A stretch of DNA of 64,000 nucleotides, taken from positions 2,994,001 through 3,058,000 of the forward strand of contig NZ_JNIR01000001.1 in assembly GCF_000702605.1 (NCBI RefSeq). Direction: 5' to 3'. Position 1 is the first letter of the stretch. Each line of letters opens with the position of its first letter. Under the pieces are notes generated by a model. That model saw only the letters and a program-made list of their open reading frames with translations. It made no database searches and was not told the origin of the DNA. Positions 4,724-12,935 of this stretch are shown here, piece after piece. This DNA is from Exiguobacterium acetylicum DSM 20416 (GTDB lineage: Bacteria; Bacillota; Bacilli; Exiguobacteriales; Exiguobacteriaceae). The position numbers and the translations under genes were made by a program.

Positions 4724-4930
4724 TTATGCAGTCGGCACATCATAGCCGATCTCTTCAATCGCATCGACGAGACGCTCACGTGAAACGTCCTCATGCTGTA
4801 CGGTCACTTGGTTTTGTTCGAGTGAGACAGTTGCCTGTTGCACACCTTCGACTTCAGATAGAGCGGATTCAACACTCGCTTTACAGTGATTGCATGTCAT
4901 ACCGATAACAGATAATGTTGTTTCTTTCAT
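4724..4930 (-). CDS. copZ: Copper chaperone CopZ
   Basis: This 68-aa single heavy-metal-associated domain has the Cu(I)-binding motif GMTCNHC at residues 10-16 and the typical betaalphabeta-betaalphabeta length. It should carry Cu(I) in the cytoplasm to CopA. The ATG overlaps the copA stop by four bases (ATGA), so it is the last gene of csoR-copA-copZ. Confidence 0.96.
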   Translation of the reverse strand: MKETTLSVIGMTCNHCKASVESALSEVEGVQQATVSLEQNQVTVQHEDVSRERLVDAIEEIGYDVPTA

Positions 4931-7056
4931 GATGATGTTCCTCCTTCAGATAGTGGGGTACGTTTTAATCGTAACGCATTCGTCACGACAGAGACAGAGC
5001 TGAATGCCATGGCAGCGCCCGCAAGCCATGGGGCAAGCAGCCCGAGAAAAGCGACCGGAATGCCAATCGTATTATAGCCAAGTGCGAAGACAAGATTTTG
5101 ACGAATATTTTTCATCGTTTGCTCACTCAACTCGATCGCAAGTAAAACTTGTTTTAAGTCGTGTCCAAGCAATGTCACGTCGGCTGCTTCAAGGGCAACA
5201 TCCGTGCCGCTACCGAGCGCGATGCCAACGTCCGCCGTTACAAGAGCAGGGGCATCATTGATACCGTCTCCGACCATCGCGACACGTTTCGTTTGTTGAA
5301 GTGATTGAATAACATCAGCCTTTTCAACAGGTAAGACGTCAGCAAAGACGAACGCTGGATCGAGTCCAAGCTCCTCTGCTAAATGCTCGGCGACTTCCCG
5401 ACGATCACCGGTCAAGAGATACACTTCTTTTGTCTGGCGCAACCGCCGGATCGTTTCTTTCGCTGAATCTTTCAACGCGTCACGGATGGCGTATCCGGCA
5501 ACGACTTTTCCGTCGACAGCAACATATACGAGTGTCGCTCCAAGTGATGTCCAGTCGGGAAGAGTAAGACCGCGTTCCTGCATCATTCGCGCCGATCCGA
5601 CGATGAGATCATGTCCCATGATTTGTCCCGTGATCCCATGTCCTGATTCGACGTGGAATCGTTCGATATCAAAGACGACATCCCGTTCTGCTGTGATGGC
5701 GCGAGCAAGGGGATGTTCCGATTGCCGTTCAAGCGCAGCAGCGAAATCGAGCGCTGTCTCCGTACCGAACGTTTCGACGACGATGGGGCGACCGACTGTC
5801 AGTGTTCCGGTCTTATCAAAGACGACAGCATCGACATGTTGAAGATTCTCGAGTTGAGCACCGCCCTTGAAGAGAATACCTCGTTCCGCCCCTTTTCCGG
5901 TTCCAACCATGATCGAAGTTGGTGTCGCAAGCCCGAGCGCACATGGACAAGCGATGACGAGCACCGCGATGGCAGGACGAATCGCTTCCGCAAAGGAACC
6001 GGTGAACATCCACCAAGCGGCTAACGTCAGAAGCGCGATGGCAACGACGATCGGCACGAACACACCAGAAATCCGATCGGCTTGTCGTTGAATCGGTGCT
6101 TTTTCAGTCTGCGCTTGTTCGACGACACGAATGATTTGCGAGAGAACTGTCGCTTGTCCGATTTTTGTCGCTTCGACTTGTAAAGATCCGTTCGTATTCA
6201 GCGTACCACCAATGACGGATTCCCCAACCGTTTTATGAACAGGCGCGGATTCACCAGTCAACATCGATTCATCGAGATACGCGTCGCCAGCCCGAATGAC
6301 ACCATCTGTCGGAATTTTGTTCCCGGGTTTTACGAGTAAGATCATACCAGTTTGAATCGCGTCGATGGAGACAGTTCGTTCCTGTCCATCCTCTAAGACG
6401 ACGGCTTCCTTCGCTTGAAGGGAGAGCAGGCTTTTGATTGCTCCTGTCGTCTGTTGTTTGGCACGGTCTTCGAGAACTTTACCGAGCAGGACGAGTGTAA
6501 TCAGAATCGCGCTTGTCTCAAAGTAAAGGTGAGGCATATTAGAGACGAGTAGCATTTCAGCAACGGAATAAAAGTAGGCTGCCGATGTCCCGAGTGCAAC
6601 GAGAACGTCCATATTGGCACTCCCACTCCGTAAACTTTTATAAGCCCCGCTGTAGAAGGGCGCTCCGATGATGAATTGTACTGGTGTTGCTAAAGCAAAC
6701 TGTAGCCACGGATTCATCAAGAATGGAAGATGAAACGGACTGTTCGGAATATGCGTCAGCATGCTCGCAAGCAGCGGTAACGATAGAAGGGCCGCGATGA
6801 TAAAGCGATACAGCATCCGGCGATTCGATTTTGTTGCGTGTGGTGCTTGTTTGACCGTTGCCCCGTAGCCGATTTTTCGGATTTTTTCGATGATCGCTTG
6901 ATCGTCATAGGCATCAGAAATCGAGACACGAGCGGTTTCAAGCGGCAAGTTGACCGTTGCTTCAACCCCGTCCATCCGGTTGAGGACTTTTTCAATCCGG
7001 GCAGAGCAGGCGGCACACGTCATGCCTTCAATATCAAACTCAATCGTTTTTGACAT
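4927..7056 (-). CDS. copA: Copper-exporting P1B-type ATPase CopA
   Basis: This 709-aa protein has one N-terminal heavy-metal domain (GMTCAACSAR, residues 11-20), eight membrane helices and all P-type landmarks. These are the TGES actuator loop, the CPC metal-transport motif in the membrane, the DKTGT phosphorylation site, SEHPLA and GDGIND. CPC plus the GMTCxxC domain indicates Cu(I) efflux from the cytoplasm. Many Bacillota CopA proteins have two N-terminal metal domains, but this one has a single domain plus a separate CopZ. It lies 13 bases after csoR. Confidence 0.97.
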   Translation of the reverse strand: MSKTIEFDIEGMTCAACSARIEKVLNRMDGVEATVNLPLETARVSISDAYDDQAIIEKIRKIGYGATVKQAPHATKSNRRMLYRFIIAALLSLPLLASMLTHIPNSPFHLPFLMNPWLQFALATPVQFIIGAPFYSGAYKSLRSGSANMDVLVALGTSAAYFYSVAEMLLVSNMPHLYFETSAILITLVLLGKVLEDRAKQQTTGAIKSLLSLQAKEAVVLEDGQERTVSIDAIQTGMILLVKPGNKIPTDGVIRAGDAYLDESMLTGESAPVHKTVGESVIGGTLNTNGSLQVEATKIGQATVLSQIIRVVEQAQTEKAPIQRQADRISGVFVPIVVAIALLTLAAWWMFTGSFAEAIRPAIAVLVIACPCALGLATPTSIMVGTGKGAERGILFKGGAQLENLQHVDAVVFDKTGTLTVGRPIVVETFGTETALDFAAALERQSEHPLARAITAERDVVFDIERFHVESGHGITGQIMGHDLIVGSARMMQERGLTLPDWTSLGATLVYVAVDGKVVAGYAIRDALKDSAKETIRRLRQTKEVYLLTGDRREVAEHLAEELGLDPAFVFADVLPVEKADVIQSLQQTKRVAMVGDGINDAPALVTADVGIALGSGTDVALEAADVTLLGHDLKQVLLAIELSEQTMKNIRQNLVFALGYNTIGIPVAFLGLLAPWLAGAAMAFSSVSVVTNALRLKRTPLSEGGTSS

Positions 7057-7069
7057 CAGAAAACCCTCC

Positions 7070-7366
7070 TTACTTTTTCAATCGAGCGATGACCGCCATC
7101 AATTCTTCGACGTAAGCGTCCGTACTGTCTTGACGGGTGGCAACTTCATGCATGCACATCTTGACATGGCGTTCGATGATTTGTAGTTCGACTTGCCGCA
7201 AAGCTGCTTGGATTGATGCCGTTTGCGTCAAAATGTCAATACAATACCGATCTTCAGCGACCATGTTAGCAATCCCGCGGACTTGTCCTTCGATGCGCTT
7301 TAGTCGTTTCATCAACGCATCTTGTTCTTCGTTCGTTCGTGGAACGACGGGATGATCGTGTGTCAT
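7070..7366 (-). CDS. csoR: Copper-sensing repressor CsoR
   Basis: This 98-aa all-helical DUF156/CsoR-family protein carries the Cu(I)-binding set as Cys in RYCIDIL plus His and Cys in ERHVKMC (H-x3-C). These three residues distinguish CsoR from formaldehyde- or nickel-sensing relatives. It is the first gene of the operon with copA and copZ and should repress it until copper binds. A G-rich palindromic operator candidate lies just upstream. Confidence 0.95.
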   Translation of the reverse strand: MTHDHPVVPRTNEEQDALMKRLKRIEGQVRGIANMVAEDRYCIDILTQTASIQAALRQVELQIIERHVKMCMHEVATRQDSTDAYVEELMAVIARLKK

Positions 7367-7412
7367 AGTCGTACCTCCTTTGGTGATCTTGTTGTCATCT
7401 TTACTGTAACAT

Positions 7413-7430
7413 ATAGGTATGGGGGGTACC
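7413..7430 (-). promoter_or_regulatory. Candidate CsoR operator
   Basis: GGTATGGGGGGTACC has palindromic ends (GGTA/TACC) around a G tract, as in known CsoR sites. It lies 47-64 bases upstream of the csoR start. Boundaries and the exact promoter are not certain. Confidence 0.6.
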
Positions 7431-7451
7431 AGTATTTAGCTTAAGAAATAA

Positions 7452-7476
7452 AAAAAACAGTCGCGAGAGGCGACTG
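7452..7476 (-). terminator. Terminator of the MFS pump gene
   Basis: CAGTCGC (7458-7464) pairs with GCGACTG (7470-7476), and the minus strand then runs into eight Ts. Confidence 0.85.
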
Positions 7477-7485
7477 CTTTTGTAC

Positions 7486-9021
7486 TTATTGATTGGAAAC
7501 TTGTGGTTTGACGATCGTTTCGTTTAATGAACGTTGATCGCTAATGATGTCTTCAGCTTGTGTCGCCCGTTTAATGAAGAAAGCAAGGACGAATGCTAGA
7601 CCAGCAATGAACGTCGAGATGAAGAACGCATAGTTGATTCCGTCAAGCGTTGCTTGCATCGTAATCTGCTGTTTTAAAGCAGCAGCCGCTTCAGCTGTCG
7701 GTTGACTCGTCATGTTCTTCGCTGCTTCAGCCGCGAGTTCTGTTCCACGTGTCTTCGCATGCGTCGACATGATTGTAACAAGCAAGGCGGTACCAATCGC
7801 ACCGGATACTTGTTGCAACGTATTGTTCATCGCTGTTCCGTGTGGATAGTAGCGTGTTGGTAACTGGTTCAAACCGTTCGTCGAGACTGGCATCATGACC
7901 ATTGACATCCCGAACATCCGCAATGAATACAGGACGATCAGATGCGTATACGTCGTATCCATCTCAAGCTGACTGAAGTAGTAACTGGTAACGACTGTGA
8001 TGAACAAACCAGTTAACGCAAGAGGACGACCACCAATCTTATCAAACAGTTTCCCGTTGATCGGTGACATGACGGCCATCAAGATAGCACCCGGTAACAG
8101 CATGAGACCCGCATCGAGTGGTGAGATACCGCGAATTGTCTGGACATAAATCGGAAGCAATAACATCCCGGAGAACATCGCCATCGTGACGACCATCGAG
8201 ATGGCAGAAGACAAGGCGAACATCGGGTAACGATAAATCTTGAAGTTGAGCATCGGACGTTCCATATGGAGCTGACGGTAAATGAATGTCACAAGTGCGA
8301 TGACTCCGACGATCAGCGCTCCATAGACGTGGAAGCTATCCCAACCCTTAGAGCCGGCAGAACTGAAACCGTACAATAAGCCACCGAAACCAAGTGATGA
8401 AAGTGCAACGGAAGCAAGATCAATCCGAGCGGCAGATCGTTCCTTGACGTCACGAAGTAAAAAGAAACCAGCGACGAGAACGATTAAGGCGATTGGTGTG
8501 ATGAAGTGGAACAGCATCCGCCAATCATAATGCTCGATGATCCAACCAGATAGCGTTGGTCCGATTGCTGGAGCTCCCATCATGATTAATCCGAAGAAGC
8601 CCATCGCAGTCCCACGTTTTTCAATCGGGAAACTGACGAGCATGACGTTCATCAGCAACGGCATCATGATCGCAGAACCGGATGCTTGAATCATCCGTCC
8701 TGCGAGCAAGACAGGGAAGACTTCTGCGAAGCCGGCAAGAATCGTTCCGGCCGAGAAGAGGGTCATTGCGAGTAAGAAGAGGCGACGAACCGAATATTTT
8801 TGAATCAAGAACGCAGATGTCGGAATTAAGACACCGTTGACGAGCATGAAACCAGTCGACAGCCATTGAGCAGTTGATGGTTCGATCGCTAAATCCTTCA
8901 TGATCGAAGGCAGGGCGATGTTGAGCAAAGTATTATTTAAGAAAGCAATGAATGCCCCGATCATCAAAACGGCGAGTATGCCGTAAGGAGCCCGAGCAGT
9001 ATGAGTTGCACTTTGTTGCAT
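7486..9021 (-). CDS. MFS drug-efflux transporter, DHA2 (14-helix) family
   Basis: This 511-aa protein has fourteen predicted membrane helices. Its N-terminal half reads FLNNTLLNIALPSIMKDL, then WLSTGFMLVNGVLIPTSAFL, and its motif C region is MMGAPAIGPTLSGW. These mark EmrB/QacA-type proton-coupled drug exporters such as MdrP and LmrB. A loop of about 40 polar residues (around 430-470) precedes the last helix, and the C-terminus is cytoplasmic. The gene stands alone, with an inverted repeat upstream that may bind a regulator not encoded here. The substrates are unknown. Confidence 0.88.
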   Translation of the reverse strand: MQQSATHTARAPYGILAVLMIGAFIAFLNNTLLNIALPSIMKDLAIEPSTAQWLSTGFMLVNGVLIPTSAFLIQKYSVRRLFLLAMTLFSAGTILAGFAEVFPVLLAGRMIQASGSAIMMPLLMNVMLVSFPIEKRGTAMGFFGLIMMGAPAIGPTLSGWIIEHYDWRMLFHFITPIALIVLVAGFFLLRDVKERSAARIDLASVALSSLGFGGLLYGFSSAGSKGWDSFHVYGALIVGVIALVTFIYRQLHMERPMLNFKIYRYPMFALSSAISMVVTMAMFSGMLLLPIYVQTIRGISPLDAGLMLLPGAILMAVMSPINGKLFDKIGGRPLALTGLFITVVTSYYFSQLEMDTTYTHLIVLYSLRMFGMSMVMMPVSTNGLNQLPTRYYPHGTAMNNTLQQVSGAIGTALLVTIMSTHAKTRGTELAAEAAKNMTSQPTAEAAAALKQQITMQATLDGINYAFFISTFIAGLAFVLAFFIKRATQAEDIISDQRSLNETIVKPQVSNQ

Positions 9022-9240: not shown

Positions 9241-9279
9241 CAAAAAAGCGCAATCCTTCTCGTTAAAGAAAAATTGCGC
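9241..9279 (-). terminator. Terminator of the gabD-ALS-ytxJ operon
   Basis: GCGCAAT (9248-9254) pairs with ATTGCGC (9273-9279) and is followed by TTTTTTG on the minus strand. Confidence 0.8.
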
Positions 9280-9325: not shown

Positions 9326-9652
9326 TTACTGGACGTTCGTTTCGAGTGCATCTTTCGTGATGTCGTAATGAGAGGCTGTCCAGACCGATTTACCGTCTTG
9401 AATGAACAAAACTTGTGGTGACTCGTGTCGAACGCTGTAATGTTCGGCGATGTGGTTCGATAACGTCCGAGCTTCTTGGACGAAAAGATACGCCGTTGGA
9501 ACAGATGTTTCATCCGCGAACTTCGTATACTCCGAGAATCCTGCGGCACTGATCGGGCACGTCGTGCTGTGTTTGCAAATCACGAACGCGGTGTGTTCGG
9601 ACGCAAATTGATCAAAATCAGAAATAGATTGCAGTTTACGTGGTTGTGTCAT
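9326..9652 (-). CDS. ytxJ: YtxJ-type bacillithiol-system redox protein
   Basis: This 108-aa thioredoxin-fold protein has the single-cysteine motif STTCPISAAG (Cys near residue 32), which fits the YtxJ monothiol bacilliredoxin family. Such proteins probably remove bacillithiol from modified cysteines. I choose ATG 9652 over the GTG at 9661 because the GGAGGG ribosome site is nine bases upstream. That site lies inside the last codons of the preceding ThDP-enzyme gene, so translation is coupled. Confidence 0.85.
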   Translation of the reverse strand: MTQPRKLQSISDFDQFASEHTAFVICKHSTTCPISAAGFSEYTKFADETSVPTAYLFVQEARTLSNHIAEHYSVRHESPQVLFIQDGKSVWTASHYDITKDALETNVQ

Positions 9653-9657
9653 GTATA

Positions 9658-11286
9658 TCACCCTCCATACGTCCGGAGACGTTCACTTAACTTTAGATTT
9701 TCCCGGTAATCGACCGGACAGTCAATTAAAACGGGTCCATCACTTGCAAATGCTTGGTCAAGACAATGTGCGAGGGAACCATGCTCACCGACACGAAGAC
9801 CGAGTGCCCCAAAGGCGTGAGCCAGTTGAACGAGGTCTGGATTGTCAAACGTGATGTAGGACGACCGCCCATACGCTTGTTGTTGTTTCCATTCAATCAG
9901 TCCGTAGGTTCCGTCACGCCAAATCAATACGACGAGTGGAAGCTTCAGACGAACGGCAGTTTCAAGATCTTGTCCATTCATCAGAAAGGCACCATCTCCA
10001 GCCGCACAGACGATTCGCCGATCCGGATATAACAGCTTGGCTGCGAGCGCACTCGATAAACCATAGCCCATCGAAGCGAATCCATTGGAAATGAATAATT
10101 GATCTGGACGTGTCGTTTGATAATGACGAGCGAGCCACACTTTATGGGCGCCGACGTCTGAGAAGACCATGCCATCCTCCCCGACGGTTCGTTCGAGTTC
10201 ACGGACGATACTTTGAGGATGTAAAGGCAAGGCAAGCGAGTACGTTTCTTGAATCTCGTCGCGTAATTTATCGCGATCGTGTTGCCAGCCGTTCCACGCA
10301 CGCTCTGGAAGTAAAGGAGTCAATACAGTCAGCATATCGACGAGTGGTCCGACTACGTTCGCGACGACCGGATAATAGGCATCGATTTCGTGAGGATTCG
10401 TATCCAAATGGACGATTGGTGTCTTTTTCGGGTTCCATTTTTGCGGAGGTAACTCCGTAATATCGTAGCCCACCGTAATAATGAGGTCACTCGCATCGAG
10501 AATCCGCTGGTTGTAATCGACGTCCGGTAAACCGATCGTGTGTGCAGCGAGCGGATGGTGTGAAGAAATCGCTCCTTTTCCCATCATCGTCTCGACGACA
10601 GGAGCTTGGAGCTTTTCGACGAATGCTCGAAACGCTTCAAGTGCTTGCTGCCGGTGGATGCCAAATCCAGCAATGATGACGGGCCGTTTTGCTCGTTCAA
10701 TCAGACGTAAAGCATCGGGATCATCAATCGTCAAGGAATGGAGATGCGTTGGCGTACTATCCTGCTGTAAGGGTGTCACTGATTGATTACGTTCTTGTTT
10801 TGCGATGTCTTCTGGAAAAGAGATATGGGTTGCCCCTGGTTTTTCACTACTTGCTGTCGCAAAGGCACGTCGAACGATTTCCGGAATGACCTCCGCCGAC
10901 AGCACGGACGTACTGGACTTCGTGACAGGACGATAGAGATCTACGAGATCAAACATTTGATGCGACGCCTTATGTTGCCGTGCTGTTGCGCCTTGACCCG
11001 TGATCGCGACGACAGGGGAGTGATCCATCGTCGCACTTGCAATACCGGTCATCATATTGGTCGCACCAGGACCTAGTGTCGATAGGCAGACACCCGGTCG
11101 CCCACTCAGGCGACCGAACATCGCTGCCATGAAAGCGGCGTTCGTTTCGTGACGTGTCGTGATAAAGGTGATCGACGAACGACTGAGCGATTCGAGCAAT
11201 GTGATGTTTTCCTCACCGGGAACACCAAAGATATGCGTGACGCCCTCTGCCTCTAAACATTGGACGAACCAATCCGCCGCGTTCAC
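9658..11286 (-). CDS. ThDP enzyme of the acetolactate synthase family, possible 2-oxoglutarate decarboxylase
   Basis: This 542-aa protein has the three-domain thiamine-diphosphate layout. The PYR domain carries the catalytic Glu47 in TTRHETNAAF. Next is a central domain, then a PP domain with the cofactor motif GDGAFLMNGQDLETAVRL. By family it resembles catabolic acetolactate synthase. However, its start overlaps the succinate-semialdehyde dehydrogenase stop by four bases, and no acetolactate decarboxylase is near. In Synechococcus PCC 7002 an acetolactate-synthase-like gene beside SSADH encodes 2-oxoglutarate decarboxylase. The GVPGEEN, STLGPGATN and SHQMFDLV stretches look like that type. 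Its substrate is therefore open. Confidence 0.8.
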   Translation of the reverse strand: MNAADWFVQCLEAEGVTHIFGVPGEENITLLESLSRSSITFITTRHETNAAFMAAMFGRLSGRPGVCLSTLGPGATNMMTGIASATMDHSPVVAITGQGATARQHKASHQMFDLVDLYRPVTKSSTSVLSAEVIPEIVRRAFATASSEKPGATHISFPEDIAKQERNQSVTPLQQDSTPTHLHSLTIDDPDALRLIERAKRPVIIAGFGIHRQQALEAFRAFVEKLQAPVVETMMGKGAISSHHPLAAHTIGLPDVDYNQRILDASDLIITVGYDITELPPQKWNPKKTPIVHLDTNPHEIDAYYPVVANVVGPLVDMLTVLTPLLPERAWNGWQHDRDKLRDEIQETYSLALPLHPQSIVRELERTVGEDGMVFSDVGAHKVWLARHYQTTRPDQLFISNGFASMGYGLSSALAAKLLYPDRRIVCAAGDGAFLMNGQDLETAVRLKLPLVVLIWRDGTYGLIEWKQQQAYGRSSYITFDNPDLVQLAHAFGALGLRVGEHGSLAHCLDQAFASDGPVLIDCPVDYRENLKLSERLRTYGG

Positions 11287-12719
11287 GCTAGTCCACCGAT
11301 GGAAATGTACTTCGTCTCAAGATACGCTTCGAGTCCTTCACTACCGCCTTCGCGCCCGAGACCGGATTGTTTCATTCCACCAAATGGTGCTTGCGCAGCA
11401 GAAGGAACGCCATCATTCCAGCCGACGATTCCATAATCAAGCCCCTCGATTGCACGAATGGCACGCGCGTAATCCTTTGTAAAGACGTACGAAGCGAGAC
11501 CGAATGGTGTCTGATTGGCGTAACGAACCGCCTCCTCATCAGAACTGACACGCTGGACGGGAGCAACAGGTCCGAACGTCTCCTCGTTCATGATCAGCAT
11601 GCCGGGTTTTACGTCCGCAAGAACGGTTGCTTCATAATAATAGACATCGTTCTCCTCATCCGTCGTTCCTGTTCCGCCCGTGACGACTCGTGCACCAGCG
11701 GATGTCGCATCATCAACATGTTTTTTGACTTTATCGTAACCCGCTTTATTGATCATCGGTCCAATCTTCGTCTCAGCATCCAGACCATTTCCGGTCTTCA
11801 ACTTCGCTGTCTCTTGCCCGAGTTTTTCAACGAACGCGTCATAGATCGAGTCGGATACGTAAATCCGGTTTCCGCAGACACACGTCTGTCCGCCATTACG
11901 GAATTTAGACTTAATCGTCTCAGCAACAGCTAAATCAAGGTCACAGTCATCAAAGACGAGAATCGGTGCATGTCCTCCGAGTTCGAGCGACATCGCCTTG
12001 ATCGTCTCTGCTCCTTGAGCCATCAGCGTCCGTCCGACTTCGGTTGAACCAGTGAAGGTGATCTTATCGACATGTGGATGTGTCGCGAGTGATTCACCGA
12101 GTGCTTTCCCGCTGCCTGTAACGGCATTGACGACGCCTTCTGGAATCCCAACTTCCTGACAGAGTTCAAGAAGACGAAGCGCGGTAAGCGGAGTCGCTGT
12201 TGGTGGTTTGATGACAAACGTACATCCGGCGACGAGTGCCGGAGCAAGCTTTCGGGTAATCATGGCAGCCGGGAAGTTCCATGGTGTGATTGCAGCAACG
12301 ACACCGACCGGCTGTTTGATGACTTGAAGTCGTTTAGAAGCATCATGCGTTGGAATGACACGCCCATACGCCCGTTTTCCTTCCTCTGCAAACCACTTGA
12401 CGAAGTTTGCGGCATACTGCACTTCACCTTCTGATTCAGCGAGCGGTTTCCCCATTTCCAGCGTCATCAGGCGAGCCAGTTCATCTTTTTTCTCAATCAT
12501 CTTCGCATATAATTTCTCGAGAAGTTCGGCACGTTCGTAGACCGTCCGTTTCGACCAATCAGGAAATGCCTTCCGTGCTGCTTCGACAGCATCATTGACG
12601 TCTGATTTTGTTCCGTTTGGTACACTACCGACGACTTCCCCGGTCGCCGGATTCGTAACATCCGTCCGTTCTCGTCCGTGATCTAGCCATTGTCCGCCAA
12701 TAAAGAATTGTCCCTTCAT
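11283..12719 (-). CDS. gabD: NAD(P)-dependent succinate-semialdehyde dehydrogenase
   Basis: This 478-aa aldehyde dehydrogenase has the general base Glu in MSLELGGHAP and the catalytic Cys in GGQTCVCGNR. The second Cys two residues later is typical of SSADH. TPWNFPAAMITRKLAPAL and FTGSTEVGR are also SSADH-like. The protein oxidises succinate semialdehyde to succinate. It is first in an operon with the ThDP enzyme and ytxJ. No GABA transaminase is adjacent, so the semialdehyde could come from the ThDP enzyme. Confidence 0.9.
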   Translation of the reverse strand: MKGQFFIGGQWLDHGRERTDVTNPATGEVVGSVPNGTKSDVNDAVEAARKAFPDWSKRTVYERAELLEKLYAKMIEKKDELARLMTLEMGKPLAESEGEVQYAANFVKWFAEEGKRAYGRVIPTHDASKRLQVIKQPVGVVAAITPWNFPAAMITRKLAPALVAGCTFVIKPPTATPLTALRLLELCQEVGIPEGVVNAVTGSGKALGESLATHPHVDKITFTGSTEVGRTLMAQGAETIKAMSLELGGHAPILVFDDCDLDLAVAETIKSKFRNGGQTCVCGNRIYVSDSIYDAFVEKLGQETAKLKTGNGLDAETKIGPMINKAGYDKVKKHVDDATSAGARVVTGGTGTTDEENDVYYYEATVLADVKPGMLIMNEETFGPVAPVQRVSSDEEAVRYANQTPFGLASYVFTKDYARAIRAIEGLDYGIVGWNDGVPSAAQAPFGGMKQSGLGREGGSEGLEAYLETKYISIGGLA

Positions 12720-12935
12720 CCTGAAAATCCCCCTTTTTTTACGTGCATTGATAAGGGTATACCCGAACGAAGAAAAAAAGATTCACTCTCGGAAGGAAAG
12801 GTTATGCAAAAGGGTAGAAATCGACCGATAAACAGTGTAGGATAATTCAGTAAATGTAATGTAAAACGCTATGAAATATTCATCGTGAATAAAGAGTGAC
12901 ACCCGTTGATGTGAAATGGTGGAATCACCCCCGAA
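12720..12935. other. Intergenic region between gabD and malL
   Basis: This region carries the gabD leader and divergent promoter sequences. No convincing gene is visible, only short frames without a domain. Confidence 0.5.

Follow-up and report, generated by a model that had tools for sequence, protein, structure and literature searches.

Published accounts, in the sections available, describe the 2-oxoglutarate decarboxylase (2-OGDC or KGD) bypass mainly as a cyanobacterial substitute for a missing 2-oxoglutarate dehydrogenase (OGDH). The decarboxylase and succinic semialdehyde dehydrogenase (SSADH) genes of Synechococcus 7002 have been published as an operon, according to the available part of PMC5160925. 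The cyanobacterial-type KGD forms an aldehyde from 2-oxoglutarate alone among six oxoacids tested, and KGD activities that are not matched to the family of the cyanobacterial enzyme, PRK08322, are named in Euglena, Leuconostoc oenos and Bradyrhizobium (PMC10418658). A literature search found no assay for a non-cyanobacterial protein placed in this family.

A KGDC-SSADH system of Pseudomonas fluorescens under oxidative stress, as presented in the available part of PMC8945261, combines both activities that are predicted for the locus described here, and OGDH was assayed there too. It differs in its reported direction, from succinate to 2-oxoglutarate. Its KGDC gene is named alkB, which makes the family doubtful, and that part of the paper reports no shared operon.

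The present locus belongs to Exiguobacterium acetylicum DSM 20416 and lies in a stretch of 64,000 nucleotides, the window, to which all plain coordinates refer. Its genes probably provide a route that leads from 2-oxoglutarate to succinate in parallel with OGDH. We infer the substrate, cofactor and direction of this route, the interaction of its bacilliredoxin YtxJ with the SSADH, and the physiological occasion for its use.

Organization of the operon

Three genes are arranged in the order SSADH, ThDP-dependent enzyme and YtxJ, with the following features.

12823..12863, minus strand: non-coding block upstream, kept across the genus in a 19-genome alignment
12759..12764, minus strand: GGGTAT within a conserved TCGGGTATA context upstream of the SSADH gene, in 19/19 genomes
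11283..12719, minus strand: SSADH of GabD type, 478 aa, ATG start (open frame, family profile, pocket residues)
11283..11286, minus strand: 4-nt overlap of SSADH stop and ThDP start, GTGA here and ATGA or GTGA in relatives
9658..11286, minus strand: ThDP-dependent 2-oxoacid decarboxylase, probable 2-oxoglutarate decarboxylase, 542 aa, GTG start (profiles, trees, residues)
9326..9652, minus strand: YtxJ/BrxC monothiol bacilliredoxin with TCPIS motif, ATG start at 9652 (TIGR04019, Pfam BrxC)
9248..9279, minus strand: candidate intrinsic terminator 3′ of ytxJ, with a 14-pair stem, a 4-nt loop and a T run

The SSADH and ThDP frames are both open, and their four-base overlap, reported by the first-pass annotation, is correct. 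The overlap is kept in 18 of the 19 Exiguobacterium genomes and replaced by a 2-nt gap in the remaining one. The Pfam domains are Aldedh (592.6 bits) in the SSADH, TPP_enzyme_N, _M and _C in the ThDP enzyme, and BrxC (110.2 bits) in YtxJ, which also scores 117.7 bits on TIGR04019 (cut-off 77.25).

The ytxJ gene, previously called coupled to the ThDP gene, does follow closely behind it, but the listed GTG start at 9661, with its 4-nt overlap, is probably wrong. That site holds none of ATG, GTG and TTG in 13 of the 19 genomes. The start kept instead, ATG 9652, stands behind a GGAGG, 5 nt past the ThDP stop; across the 19 junctions, this codon is ATG in 18 genomes and TTG in one.

The core of the upstream block is present in all 19 genomes. 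The GGGTAT hexamer resembles a −10 element of SigB, and no clear −35 element was seen for it. Terminator-like sites across the region number five, which is not above the mean of 4.7 in shuffled sequences.

Family placement and active sites of the two enzymes

The SSADH scores 634.4 bits on TIGR01780, 12 below the cut-off of 646.35, and this is still its top-scoring NCBIfam family; its filing as SSADH-like rests on residues instead. The nearest solved structure is E. coli GabD (3jz4, 6e-165). The succinic-semialdehyde-binding residues of GabD are all present, in agreement with the initial identification: R164, R283 (numbered R282 in another passage) and S445 map to R156, R274 and S440, and catalytic C288 maps to C280. 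The catalytic Cys and all three semialdehyde-carboxylate residues occur in 19/19 genomes. The redox-sensitive Cys-Val-Cys (CVC) loop is shared as well, with C282 as the redox partner of C280 in the motif GGQTCVCG. In E. coli GabD, this loop goes with peroxide inactivation and recovery by DTT, according to the available part of PMC2823781.

Profiles and trees place the ThDP enzyme in the cyanobacterial 2-OGDC family and not with AlsS, as the first-pass annotation had suggested from its likeness to the cyanobacterial enzyme. It scores 660.9 bits on the PRK08322 model (NF006187, cut-off 509), on which a cyanobacterial member (L066) reaches 878.2. It falls below the cut-offs of both AlsS models, with 458.5 on TIGR02418 (551.1) and 489.5 on NF006378 (510), the latter a cut-off that is passed by L066 and by a Bacillaceae enzyme (L056). 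The true AlsS of the genome scores 833.3 and 894.1, respectively.

In a tree of 102 rows, the ThDP enzyme groups with three other Exiguobacterium rows and six other PRK08322 Bacilli (support 97). It lies in the PRK08322 Bacilli group in a tree of 52 chosen rows (100/100) and in one of 42 rows with further Bacilli added (99); this group is open in one further tree. The AlsS rows form a separate clade (support 100). Support is weak (70 with 102 rows, 90/61 with 52 rows) for the single branch between the AlsS/IlvB rows as a whole and the PRK08322 rows as a whole, and the IlvB rows part from the AlsS rows on long branches in the 42-row tree and the further tree. Two findings had been named as jointly speaking against the cyanobacterial likeness, clustering with AlsS and an alsD elsewhere. 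The clustering was not found; an alsD was, about 1.08 Mb away beside the true alsS (C1:1920051), and it is the sole alsD match in the genome.

The active site matches named residues of the Microcystis enzyme (MaKGD) at E47, V378, H381, K382, A404, M406, D431, D458, Y461, L463 and K467. Among these, E47, H381, M406, D431, D458 and Y461 correspond to Glu50, His385, Met410, Asp435, Asp462 and Tyr465 and complete the ThDP site. The 2-oxoglutarate contacts of MaKGD, which come from docking to a model and not from a crystal structure, are Gln254, Val382, Lys386, Ala408, Leu467 and Lys471 (PMC10418658). Five of the six are kept, as V378, K382, A404, L463 and K467, and the Gln254 place is proline in all four Exiguobacterium rows. 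The other three Exiguobacterium rows have Ser at the A404 place, and the stem branch of the genus is long (1.2 changes per column in the 52-row tree). Specificity may thus have shifted.

The two lysine places are occupied in four AlsS rows by Tyr or Ala, and by Gln. K382 is present in 91/91 PRK08322 rows; judged by this alignment, it marks the family and is not proof of 2-oxoglutarate use. At the K467 place, 20 rows have His and one has Asn, while the GabD-paired enzyme of another Bacilli genome (G330) has Glu.

Genome context and distribution

The first-pass annotation proposed that the two enzymes close the TCA cycle and suggested looking for a loss of OGDH. The genome proves to retain odhA, encoding OGDH E1 (G000:C1:1355761-1358511, 1108.5 bits, cut-off 770), which is over the cut-off in 37/37 family genomes searched. 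An operon closing an otherwise open cycle is ruled out by the presence of OGDH E1 here and in all 36 relatives.

A 2-oxoacid:ferredoxin oxidoreductase is present as well. With both enzymes there is no evident need for a bypass.

As noted previously, no GABA transaminase or acetolactate decarboxylase is near, judging by eye from the ORFs at 5-18 kb. Genome-wide profile searches found no GABA transaminase over the cut-off (best 212.7 against 506.65) and no match for glutamate decarboxylase, a model that likewise found nothing in B. subtilis and matched E. coli. The locus thus differs from the E. coli GABA shunt, and the SSADH has the ThDP enzyme as its partner. The supply of succinic semialdehyde is therefore explained most economically by decarboxylation of 2-oxoglutarate. 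However, GABA can be a substrate of an ArgD-type aminotransferase in one cyanobacterium (PMC5160925), and the GABA-transaminase search is not enough by itself to exclude a GABA route.

The cyanobacterial OgdA/SsaD bypass (SynPCC7002_A2770-A2771, MaKGD, sll1981) shares with the operon the ThDP family, the catalytic and most 2-oxoglutarate-contact residues, and the gene order, with the SSADH gene preceding that of the ThDP enzyme in each of the 23 cyanobacterial loci where an aldehyde dehydrogenase (ALDH) is close. It differs in its SSADH, which is PRK09406-like, whereas that of Exiguobacterium is of GabD type. The 4-nt overlap, the attached bacilliredoxin and the Pro for Gln254 set Exiguobacterium apart, as does OGDH E1, for which 0/7 cyanobacterial genomes tested pass the cut-off.

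Haloarchaeal pairs (Haloarcula JP-L23, Halorarius halobius plasmids) also have the SSADH upstream with a 4-nt overlap, and the Halorarius pair has thiol-redox genes behind the ThDP gene, like Exiguobacterium. However, their SSADH is PRK09406-like (one profiled), and their ThDP enzymes are 41-42% identical and lie on another branch. The ThDP enzymes of the Bacillaceae Halobacillus, Mesobacillus and Salibacterium are among the nearest relatives (47-50% identity) and adjoin an ALDH; this ALDH lies downstream and is 36-37% identical to the Exiguobacterium SSADH. Of these ALDHs, the single one profiled (L056) comes closest to a lactaldehyde dehydrogenase model but does not reach its cut-off.

Of the best 80 relatives, 41 carry an ALDH-type gene on the same strand no more than 600 nt away, and the other 39 have none that close. 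ALDH-like ORFs of at least 150 aa in the same stretches make up 42/111 adjacent ORFs and 1/317 others, as expected if PRK08322 enzymes make aldehydes. In G330 a ThDP gene and a GabD gene again form a pair, with an overlap of 8 nt, and G129 lacks this pair in what is apparently the same neighbourhood. The SSADH pairing looks convergent from these sequences, cyanobacteria using another SSADH clade and other Bacilli using other ALDHs or none.

The SSADH, ThDP enzyme and YtxJ occur together in 19/19 Exiguobacterium genomes, so the arrangement is not due to chance. The three-gene set is found in 0/18 genomes of the sister genus (for the SSADH, close copies were counted).

The contrast between the two genera amounts to one evolutionary event.

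A probable parallel route and its alternatives

In the route we favour, the ThDP enzyme would decarboxylate 2-oxoglutarate non-oxidatively to succinic semialdehyde and CO2, and the coupled SSADH would oxidize the semialdehyde to succinate with NAD(P)+. YtxJ may debacillithiolate the Cys-Val-Cys loop of the SSADH, or otherwise aid its re-reduction, after oxidative stress. The bypass would run alongside OGDH and not instead of it, perhaps on occasions when that complex, which depends on lipoate and CoA, is impaired. The same two reactions have apparently been assembled independently in bacteria that keep OGDH, so closing an open cycle may not be the only use of the route. A tentative extension, which we hold to be possible but doubtful, is a second, convergently built KGD-SSADH bypass in heterotrophic Bacillota that serves as an oxidative-stress module, free of CoA and lipoate, possibly NADPH-making, and equipped with a dedicated bacilliredoxin.

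YtxJ tracks the operon within the family, in 19/19 genomes with the operon and 0/18 without, yet elsewhere in Bacilli it occurs without the operon. The proposed protection of the SSADH Cys is supported circumstantially by this co-occurrence and by the CVC loop, and weakened by YtxJ in 16/24 class-level genomes, all without a PRK08322 match over the cut-off. YtxJ could well be a bacilliredoxin of general function, carried along in the operon with no special relation to the SSADH, although we lean slightly against this. As the only TIGR04019 copy, single and inside the operon in 19/19 genomes (TCPIS motif in each), it would be left to act on any further substrates too. On the other hand, the bacillithiol gene bshC (387.3 bits here, cut-off 265.8) is found in all 37 family genomes, 18/18 in the sister genus, where YtxJ is missing together with the other two genes; the peroxide-linked loop that the SSADH shares with GabD also argues for a specific role. 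The operon link, fixed in Exiguobacterium, offers a concrete candidate substrate for a bacilliredoxin.

A passenger YtxJ is compatible with the parallel route for the other two genes.

It is unlikely that the ThDP enzyme acts on a different 2-oxo acid (e.g. branched, hydroxylated or guanidino), with an ALDH that oxidizes the product and for which SSADH is just the nearest label. Other PRK08322 relatives adjoin amidases, glutamate synthase, an Fe-alcohol dehydrogenase and lactaldehyde-dehydrogenase-like enzymes, so that several oxoacids may be substrates within the family; the long branch, the Pro at the Gln254 place and the SSADH score under its cut-off point the same way. However, the three semialdehyde-carboxylate residues are invariant in the genus, K382 and K467 match the type assayed as specific for 2-oxoglutarate (PMC10418658), and the 5-guanidino-2-oxopentanoate decarboxylase model gives just 270.7 bits against a cut-off of 500.

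Carboligation in the mycobacterial style, in which a 2-oxoglutarate-derived carbanion is joined to glyoxylate or another aldehyde and the SSADH clears leaked semialdehyde, is very improbable. Acetolactate synthases, of the same superfamily, do ligate. Mycobacterial Rv1248c converts 2-oxoglutarate and glyoxylate to 2-hydroxy-3-oxoadipate (PMC10418658), but in a published tree (PMC4224347) the mycobacterial and cyanobacterial enzymes lie apart, and the tight overlap with the SSADH gene suggests free semialdehyde as the main product.

An acetolactate synthase beside an unrelated SSADH that handles stray semialdehyde is barely credible: the NCBIfam name of PRK08322 is 'acetolactate synthase large subunit', and its cut-off is passed too by B. 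subtilis (a control) and two alsS-alsD loci (L189, L190), but both AlsS models are missed (NF006378 with the reservation given above), the AlsS rows form their own clade, the true AlsS (35% identical in the alignment, differing at the two lysine places) holds the alsD partner that the ThDP enzyme lacks, ketol-acid reductoisomerase gave partial 20-24 bit matches only in the genome search, so there is no evident valine/isoleucine pathway to feed, and the SSADH pairing recurs in other genomes. These results suggest that, among the genes called 'acetolactate synthase large subunit' after PRK08322, many encode decarboxylases.

The operon and its metabolic setting

Judged from its genes, the operon probably encodes a 2-oxoglutarate decarboxylase-SSADH bypass together with a bacilliredoxin; the bypass would run in parallel with a complete dehydrogenase route. 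Its chemistry is ordinary and its setting is unusual. The window (G000:C1:2994001-3058000 of the 3.28 Mb genome) contains the following elements.

12863-12823, minus strand: 41-nt non-coding block upstream of SSADH, kept in 19 of 19 Exiguobacterium genomes aligned
TCGGGTATA, minus strand: block upstream of SSADH with GGGTAT at 12764-12759, kept in 19 of 19 Exiguobacterium genomes aligned
11283-12719, minus strand: SSADH
9658-11286, minus strand: ThDP enzyme, GTG start, overlapping SSADH by 4 nt
Start ATG at 9652, minus strand: YtxJ, 5 nt past the ThDP stop, start set by comparison of 19 Exiguobacterium genomes (this one and 18 relatives)

The four-base overlap of the SSADH and ThDP genes described in the first-pass annotation recurs in 18 of 19 Exiguobacterium genomes; the remaining one has a 2-nt gap. 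The coupling of YtxJ downstream also held throughout the genus, with a correction of the start. The place of the upstream GTG is without ATG, GTG or TTG in 13 of 19 genomes, and the start was therefore moved to the ATG at 9652, which is ATG in 18 genomes and TTG in one. The GGGTAT block resembles a SigB −10 element, a possible sign of SigB control, and no clear −35 element was seen for it. A consensus scan placed no sigma-70 site where the operon begins, and its hits show no excess over shuffled sequences (2 versus a mean of 4.8). Downstream of the operon, at 4927-9021, lie an MFS transporter (Pfam) and, read by eye, a CsoR-like regulator and a copper-type P-ATPase.

The proposed bypass does not replace a missing 2-oxoglutarate dehydrogenase. 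Loss of this enzyme, suggested earlier as a check, is rejected, as its E1 subunit scores 1108.5 bits (cut-off 770) in the genome and is present in all 37 family genomes searched. The gene following E1 looks by eye like its E2. Near odhAB, an ORF resembling an IS3-type transposase was read by eye (L028:1419-2204). Among 80 relatives of the ThDP enzyme, E1 is over cut-off in 13 of 27 genomes searched, including 9/9 Bacilli and 0/7 cyanobacteria; several of the genomes outside these two groups are MAGs and may be incomplete. The genome also encodes a 2-oxoacid:ferredoxin oxidoreductase (Pfam). A search of the genome gave no GABA transaminase over cut-off and no match to glutamate decarboxylase.

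The bypass has been described for cyanobacteria (PMC10418658, PMC5160925, PMC4224347, PMC7510979), and a figure legend in a sulfur-oxidiser genome paper names 2-oxoglutarate decarboxylase (PMC11596669). In Pseudomonas fluorescens, KGDC and SSADH activities are reported to be tied to oxidative stress; that system differs from the bypass proposed here in its reverse direction and in a doubtful KGDC gene (PMC8945261). No open-licence paper was found to name both 'Exiguobacterium' and '2-oxoglutarate decarboxylase', and the matches listed from that literature (titles and abstract openings) include no study of this ThDP enzyme in Exiguobacterium.

Identity of the ThDP enzyme

The top NCBIfam model for the ThDP enzyme is PRK08322 (NF006187), at 660.9 bits against a cut-off of 509. 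The enzyme falls under the cut-offs of both AlsS models, with 458.5 bits on TIGR02418 (cut-off 551.1) and 489.5 bits on PRK08617 (cut-off 510). The genome's own AlsS, used as a control, scores 833.3 and 894.1 bits, respectively. Cyanobacterial (L066), Bacillaceae (L056), haloarchaeal (L048) and other Bacilli (L179, from G330) homologues score 878.2, 771.7, 617.7 and 678.1 bits on PRK08322. L066 and L056 are also over the cut-off of one AlsS model. The PRK08322 score alone was dropped as proof, as its cut-off is also passed by the B. subtilis control and by two alsS-alsD loci (L189 and L190, at about 526 bits). The model is not exclusive, and the trees therefore weigh more. By these comparisons much of the family appears to be misnamed as 'acetolactate synthase' in NF006187, and the cut-off of the model looks leaky.

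A FastTree phylogeny was built from 102 chosen rows, comprising 91 PRK08322 rows and 11 AlsS/IlvB-type rows. The AlsS rows form a separate clade (support 100) and the 26 cyanobacterial rows a single clade (100), while the four Exiguobacterium rows group with six other Bacilli (97). The lone branch splitting the AlsS/IlvB-type rows from the PRK08322 rows has a support of only 70. A mixture-model tree of 52 rows, all picked from the 102, gave supports of 100/100 for the Bacilli grouping, 100/99 for the cyanobacterial clade, 100/100 for AlsS, and 90/61 for the AlsS/IlvB split. Two smaller sets were also drawn mostly from the 102 rows. The 42-row tree again unites the Exiguobacterium enzyme with other Bacilli (99), and the 30-row tree leaves this grouping unresolved; IlvB stands apart from AlsS on long branches in the former and on a long branch in the latter. 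In the 102-row and 52-row trees, the group nearest to the cyanobacterial clade consists of three other Bacillota proteins, L088, L120 and L125, which bear the labels Ruminococcaceae, Veillonellaceae and Bacillota; their loci showed no ALDH-like ORF.

Profiles and trees thus place the ThDP enzyme, at the level of sequence, in the family of the cyanobacterial decarboxylases and outside AlsS. The tree proposed in the first-pass annotation separated it from AlsS as anticipated. The suggested likeness to the cyanobacterial 2-oxoglutarate decarboxylase stands as to the shared PRK08322 family, though the enzyme is not nested among the cyanobacterial rows.

Docking of the Microcystis enzyme has six residues contacting 2-oxoglutarate, and its ThDP-serving residues include E50, H385, M410, D435, D462, and Y465 (PMC10418658). 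Chaperones had to be co-expressed to produce that enzyme (PMC10418658). These places were taken from the published numbers and read onto our own cyanobacterial alignment rows. The published number minus 3 fits all six numbered places in 23 of 26 rows; in the other three, the numbering towards the C-terminus is displaced by one. The matching numbers support the 26 rows being orthologues of the Microcystis enzyme. The window enzyme has E47, V378, H381, K382, A404, M406, D431, D458, Y461, L463, and K467, and a proline at the place of Microcystis Gln254.

Two lysines were considered as marks of 2-oxoglutarate use, with outgroup row L138 excluded from the counts. K382 is present in 91/91 PRK08322 rows, and is replaced by Tyr or Ala in four AlsS rows and by Gln in six IlvB rows; being common to the whole family, it was abandoned as a mark. 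The K467 place is Lys in 4/4 Exiguobacterium, 26/26 cyanobacterial and 2/2 haloarchaeal rows; a further 20 rows have His, one has Asn, and G330 has Glu. Its value as a mark is weakened, since the Glu variant of G330 is paired with GabD. With K382 invariant and K467 variable, the two lysines fit a 2-oxoglutarate site and do not prove one.

Two other readings of the enzyme were rejected. Acetolactate synthase is contradicted by the profiles, the tree, the residues, and a separate alsS-alsD pair at C1:1920051-1922377. A branched-chain amino-acid synthase is likewise dismissed by the PF02776 and ketol-acid reductoisomerase searches of the genome. PF02776 has four matches, three over cut-off (the window enzyme, AlsS and, by reading, MenD) and one below (the alpha subunit of 2-oxoacid:ferredoxin oxidoreductase). 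For ketol-acid reductoisomerase all matches are partial, at 24.1, 21.9, and 19.7 bits; the cut-off is low (20.6), and two matches nominally exceed it.

SSADH and its pairing with the ThDP family

The closest solved structure to the SSADH is E. coli GabD (3jz4, 6e-165). In that enzyme the semialdehyde carboxylate is described as held by R164, R283 (or R282), and S445 (PMC2823781). The window SSADH has R156, R274, and S440 as equivalents and C280/C282 in its CVC loop, and these motifs are present in 19/19 Exiguobacterium genomes. It scores 12 bits short of the cut-off of TIGR01780, the GabD-type model. Three residues of human SSADH that are missing from E. coli GabD are said in the same paper to exclude NADP (PMC2823781). 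The window SSADH aligns with E. coli GabD without gaps at this part, so NADP use is possible. The nearest paralogue in the genome (53% identity, C1:1279604) has ACVA in place of TCVC, and neither a ThDP gene nor an evident gabT was seen beside it by eye.

One scan of genome contigs yielded at least 577 relatives of the ThDP enzyme, of which the best 80 were taken. In 41 of these 80, an ALDH-type gene is found on the same strand at a distance of no more than 600 nt. The 41 comprise 23 of 26 cyanobacterial loci, where the ALDH is upstream in every case, and 18 of 54 others. Of the three cyanobacterial loci without such a gene, one carries an ALDH 1.8 kb upstream and another is on a contig with just 0.6 kb upstream. 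Among ORFs of at least 150 aa in these stretches, 42 of 111 adjacent ones are ALDH-like, versus 1 of 317 others; a Fisher value for this adjacency is not a true probability because the rows are related. For some relatives the neighbour is instead an Fe-alcohol dehydrogenase, an amidase or a glutamate synthase. An amidase gene precedes the PRK08322 gene in two Methylophaga MAGs and one Piscirickettsiaceae MAG (L075, L081, and L108), and no E1 match was found in these genomes.

Ten of the neighbouring ALDHs were profiled. L095 is over the TIGR01780 cut-off (677.4 bits). The other nine stay under the cut-offs of their nearest models, which are PRK09406 for L066, L048, and L116 and a lactaldehyde dehydrogenase model for L056, L107, L102, L133, L044, and L046. 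An ALDH tree from a short search, with long-branch warnings for the L162 paralogue, L133, L046, and L044, contains three groups: the Exiguobacterium SSADH with its genomic paralogue and L095; 22 cyanobacterial and two haloarchaeal proteins with L116; and Bacillaceae, gammaproteobacterial and planctomycete proteins. The haloarchaeal SSADH-ThDP pair has an identical 4-nt overlap. In the Bacilli genome G330, the ThDP gene shares 8 nt with a GabD-type SSADH (TIGR01780, 663.2 bits); in G129, a genome from the same family, the ThDP gene stands without this SSADH in a neighbourhood that is alike by eye. The two loci (L191:4940-8045 and L192:6072-7787) read as if the pairing had been gained in one or lost in the other. 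SSADH seems to have joined the ThDP family on more than one occasion. Such recurrence would be expected of an enzyme with an aldehyde product, most simply succinic semialdehyde.

The YtxJ gene

YtxJ is present as one copy within the operon in 19/19 Exiguobacterium genomes and in 0/18 sister-genus genomes, as are the ThDP gene and a close SSADH copy (at least 85% identity); the 37 genomes amount to a single evolutionary contrast and do not count as independent cases. It is quite possible that YtxJ merely rides in the operon, with no dedicated tie to SSADH, as YtxJ is also found in 16 of 24 class-level genomes, and PRK08322 is over its cut-off in none of these. Within the family, YtxJ nevertheless tracks the operon, although BshC, a requirement for bacillithiol, is present in 37/37 genomes. 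Two systems also favour the link: S. aureus aldehyde dehydrogenase AldA undergoes S-bacillithiolation and inactivation (PMC6591457), and E. coli GabD, with an identical CVC loop, is inactivated by H2O2 and restored by DTT (PMC2823781). These analogies support, without showing, a functional link between YtxJ and SSADH.

YtxJ has been described as S-bacillithiolated and as carrying just one Cys, which lies in a TCPIS motif (PMC4360819). The window YtxJ has the TCPIS motif and one further Cys. Another thiol-redox neighbourhood was observed in Halorarius halobius (L052:5138-7207), where DsbA-like, redoxin and glutathione S-transferase-like genes come after an SSADH-ThDP pair.
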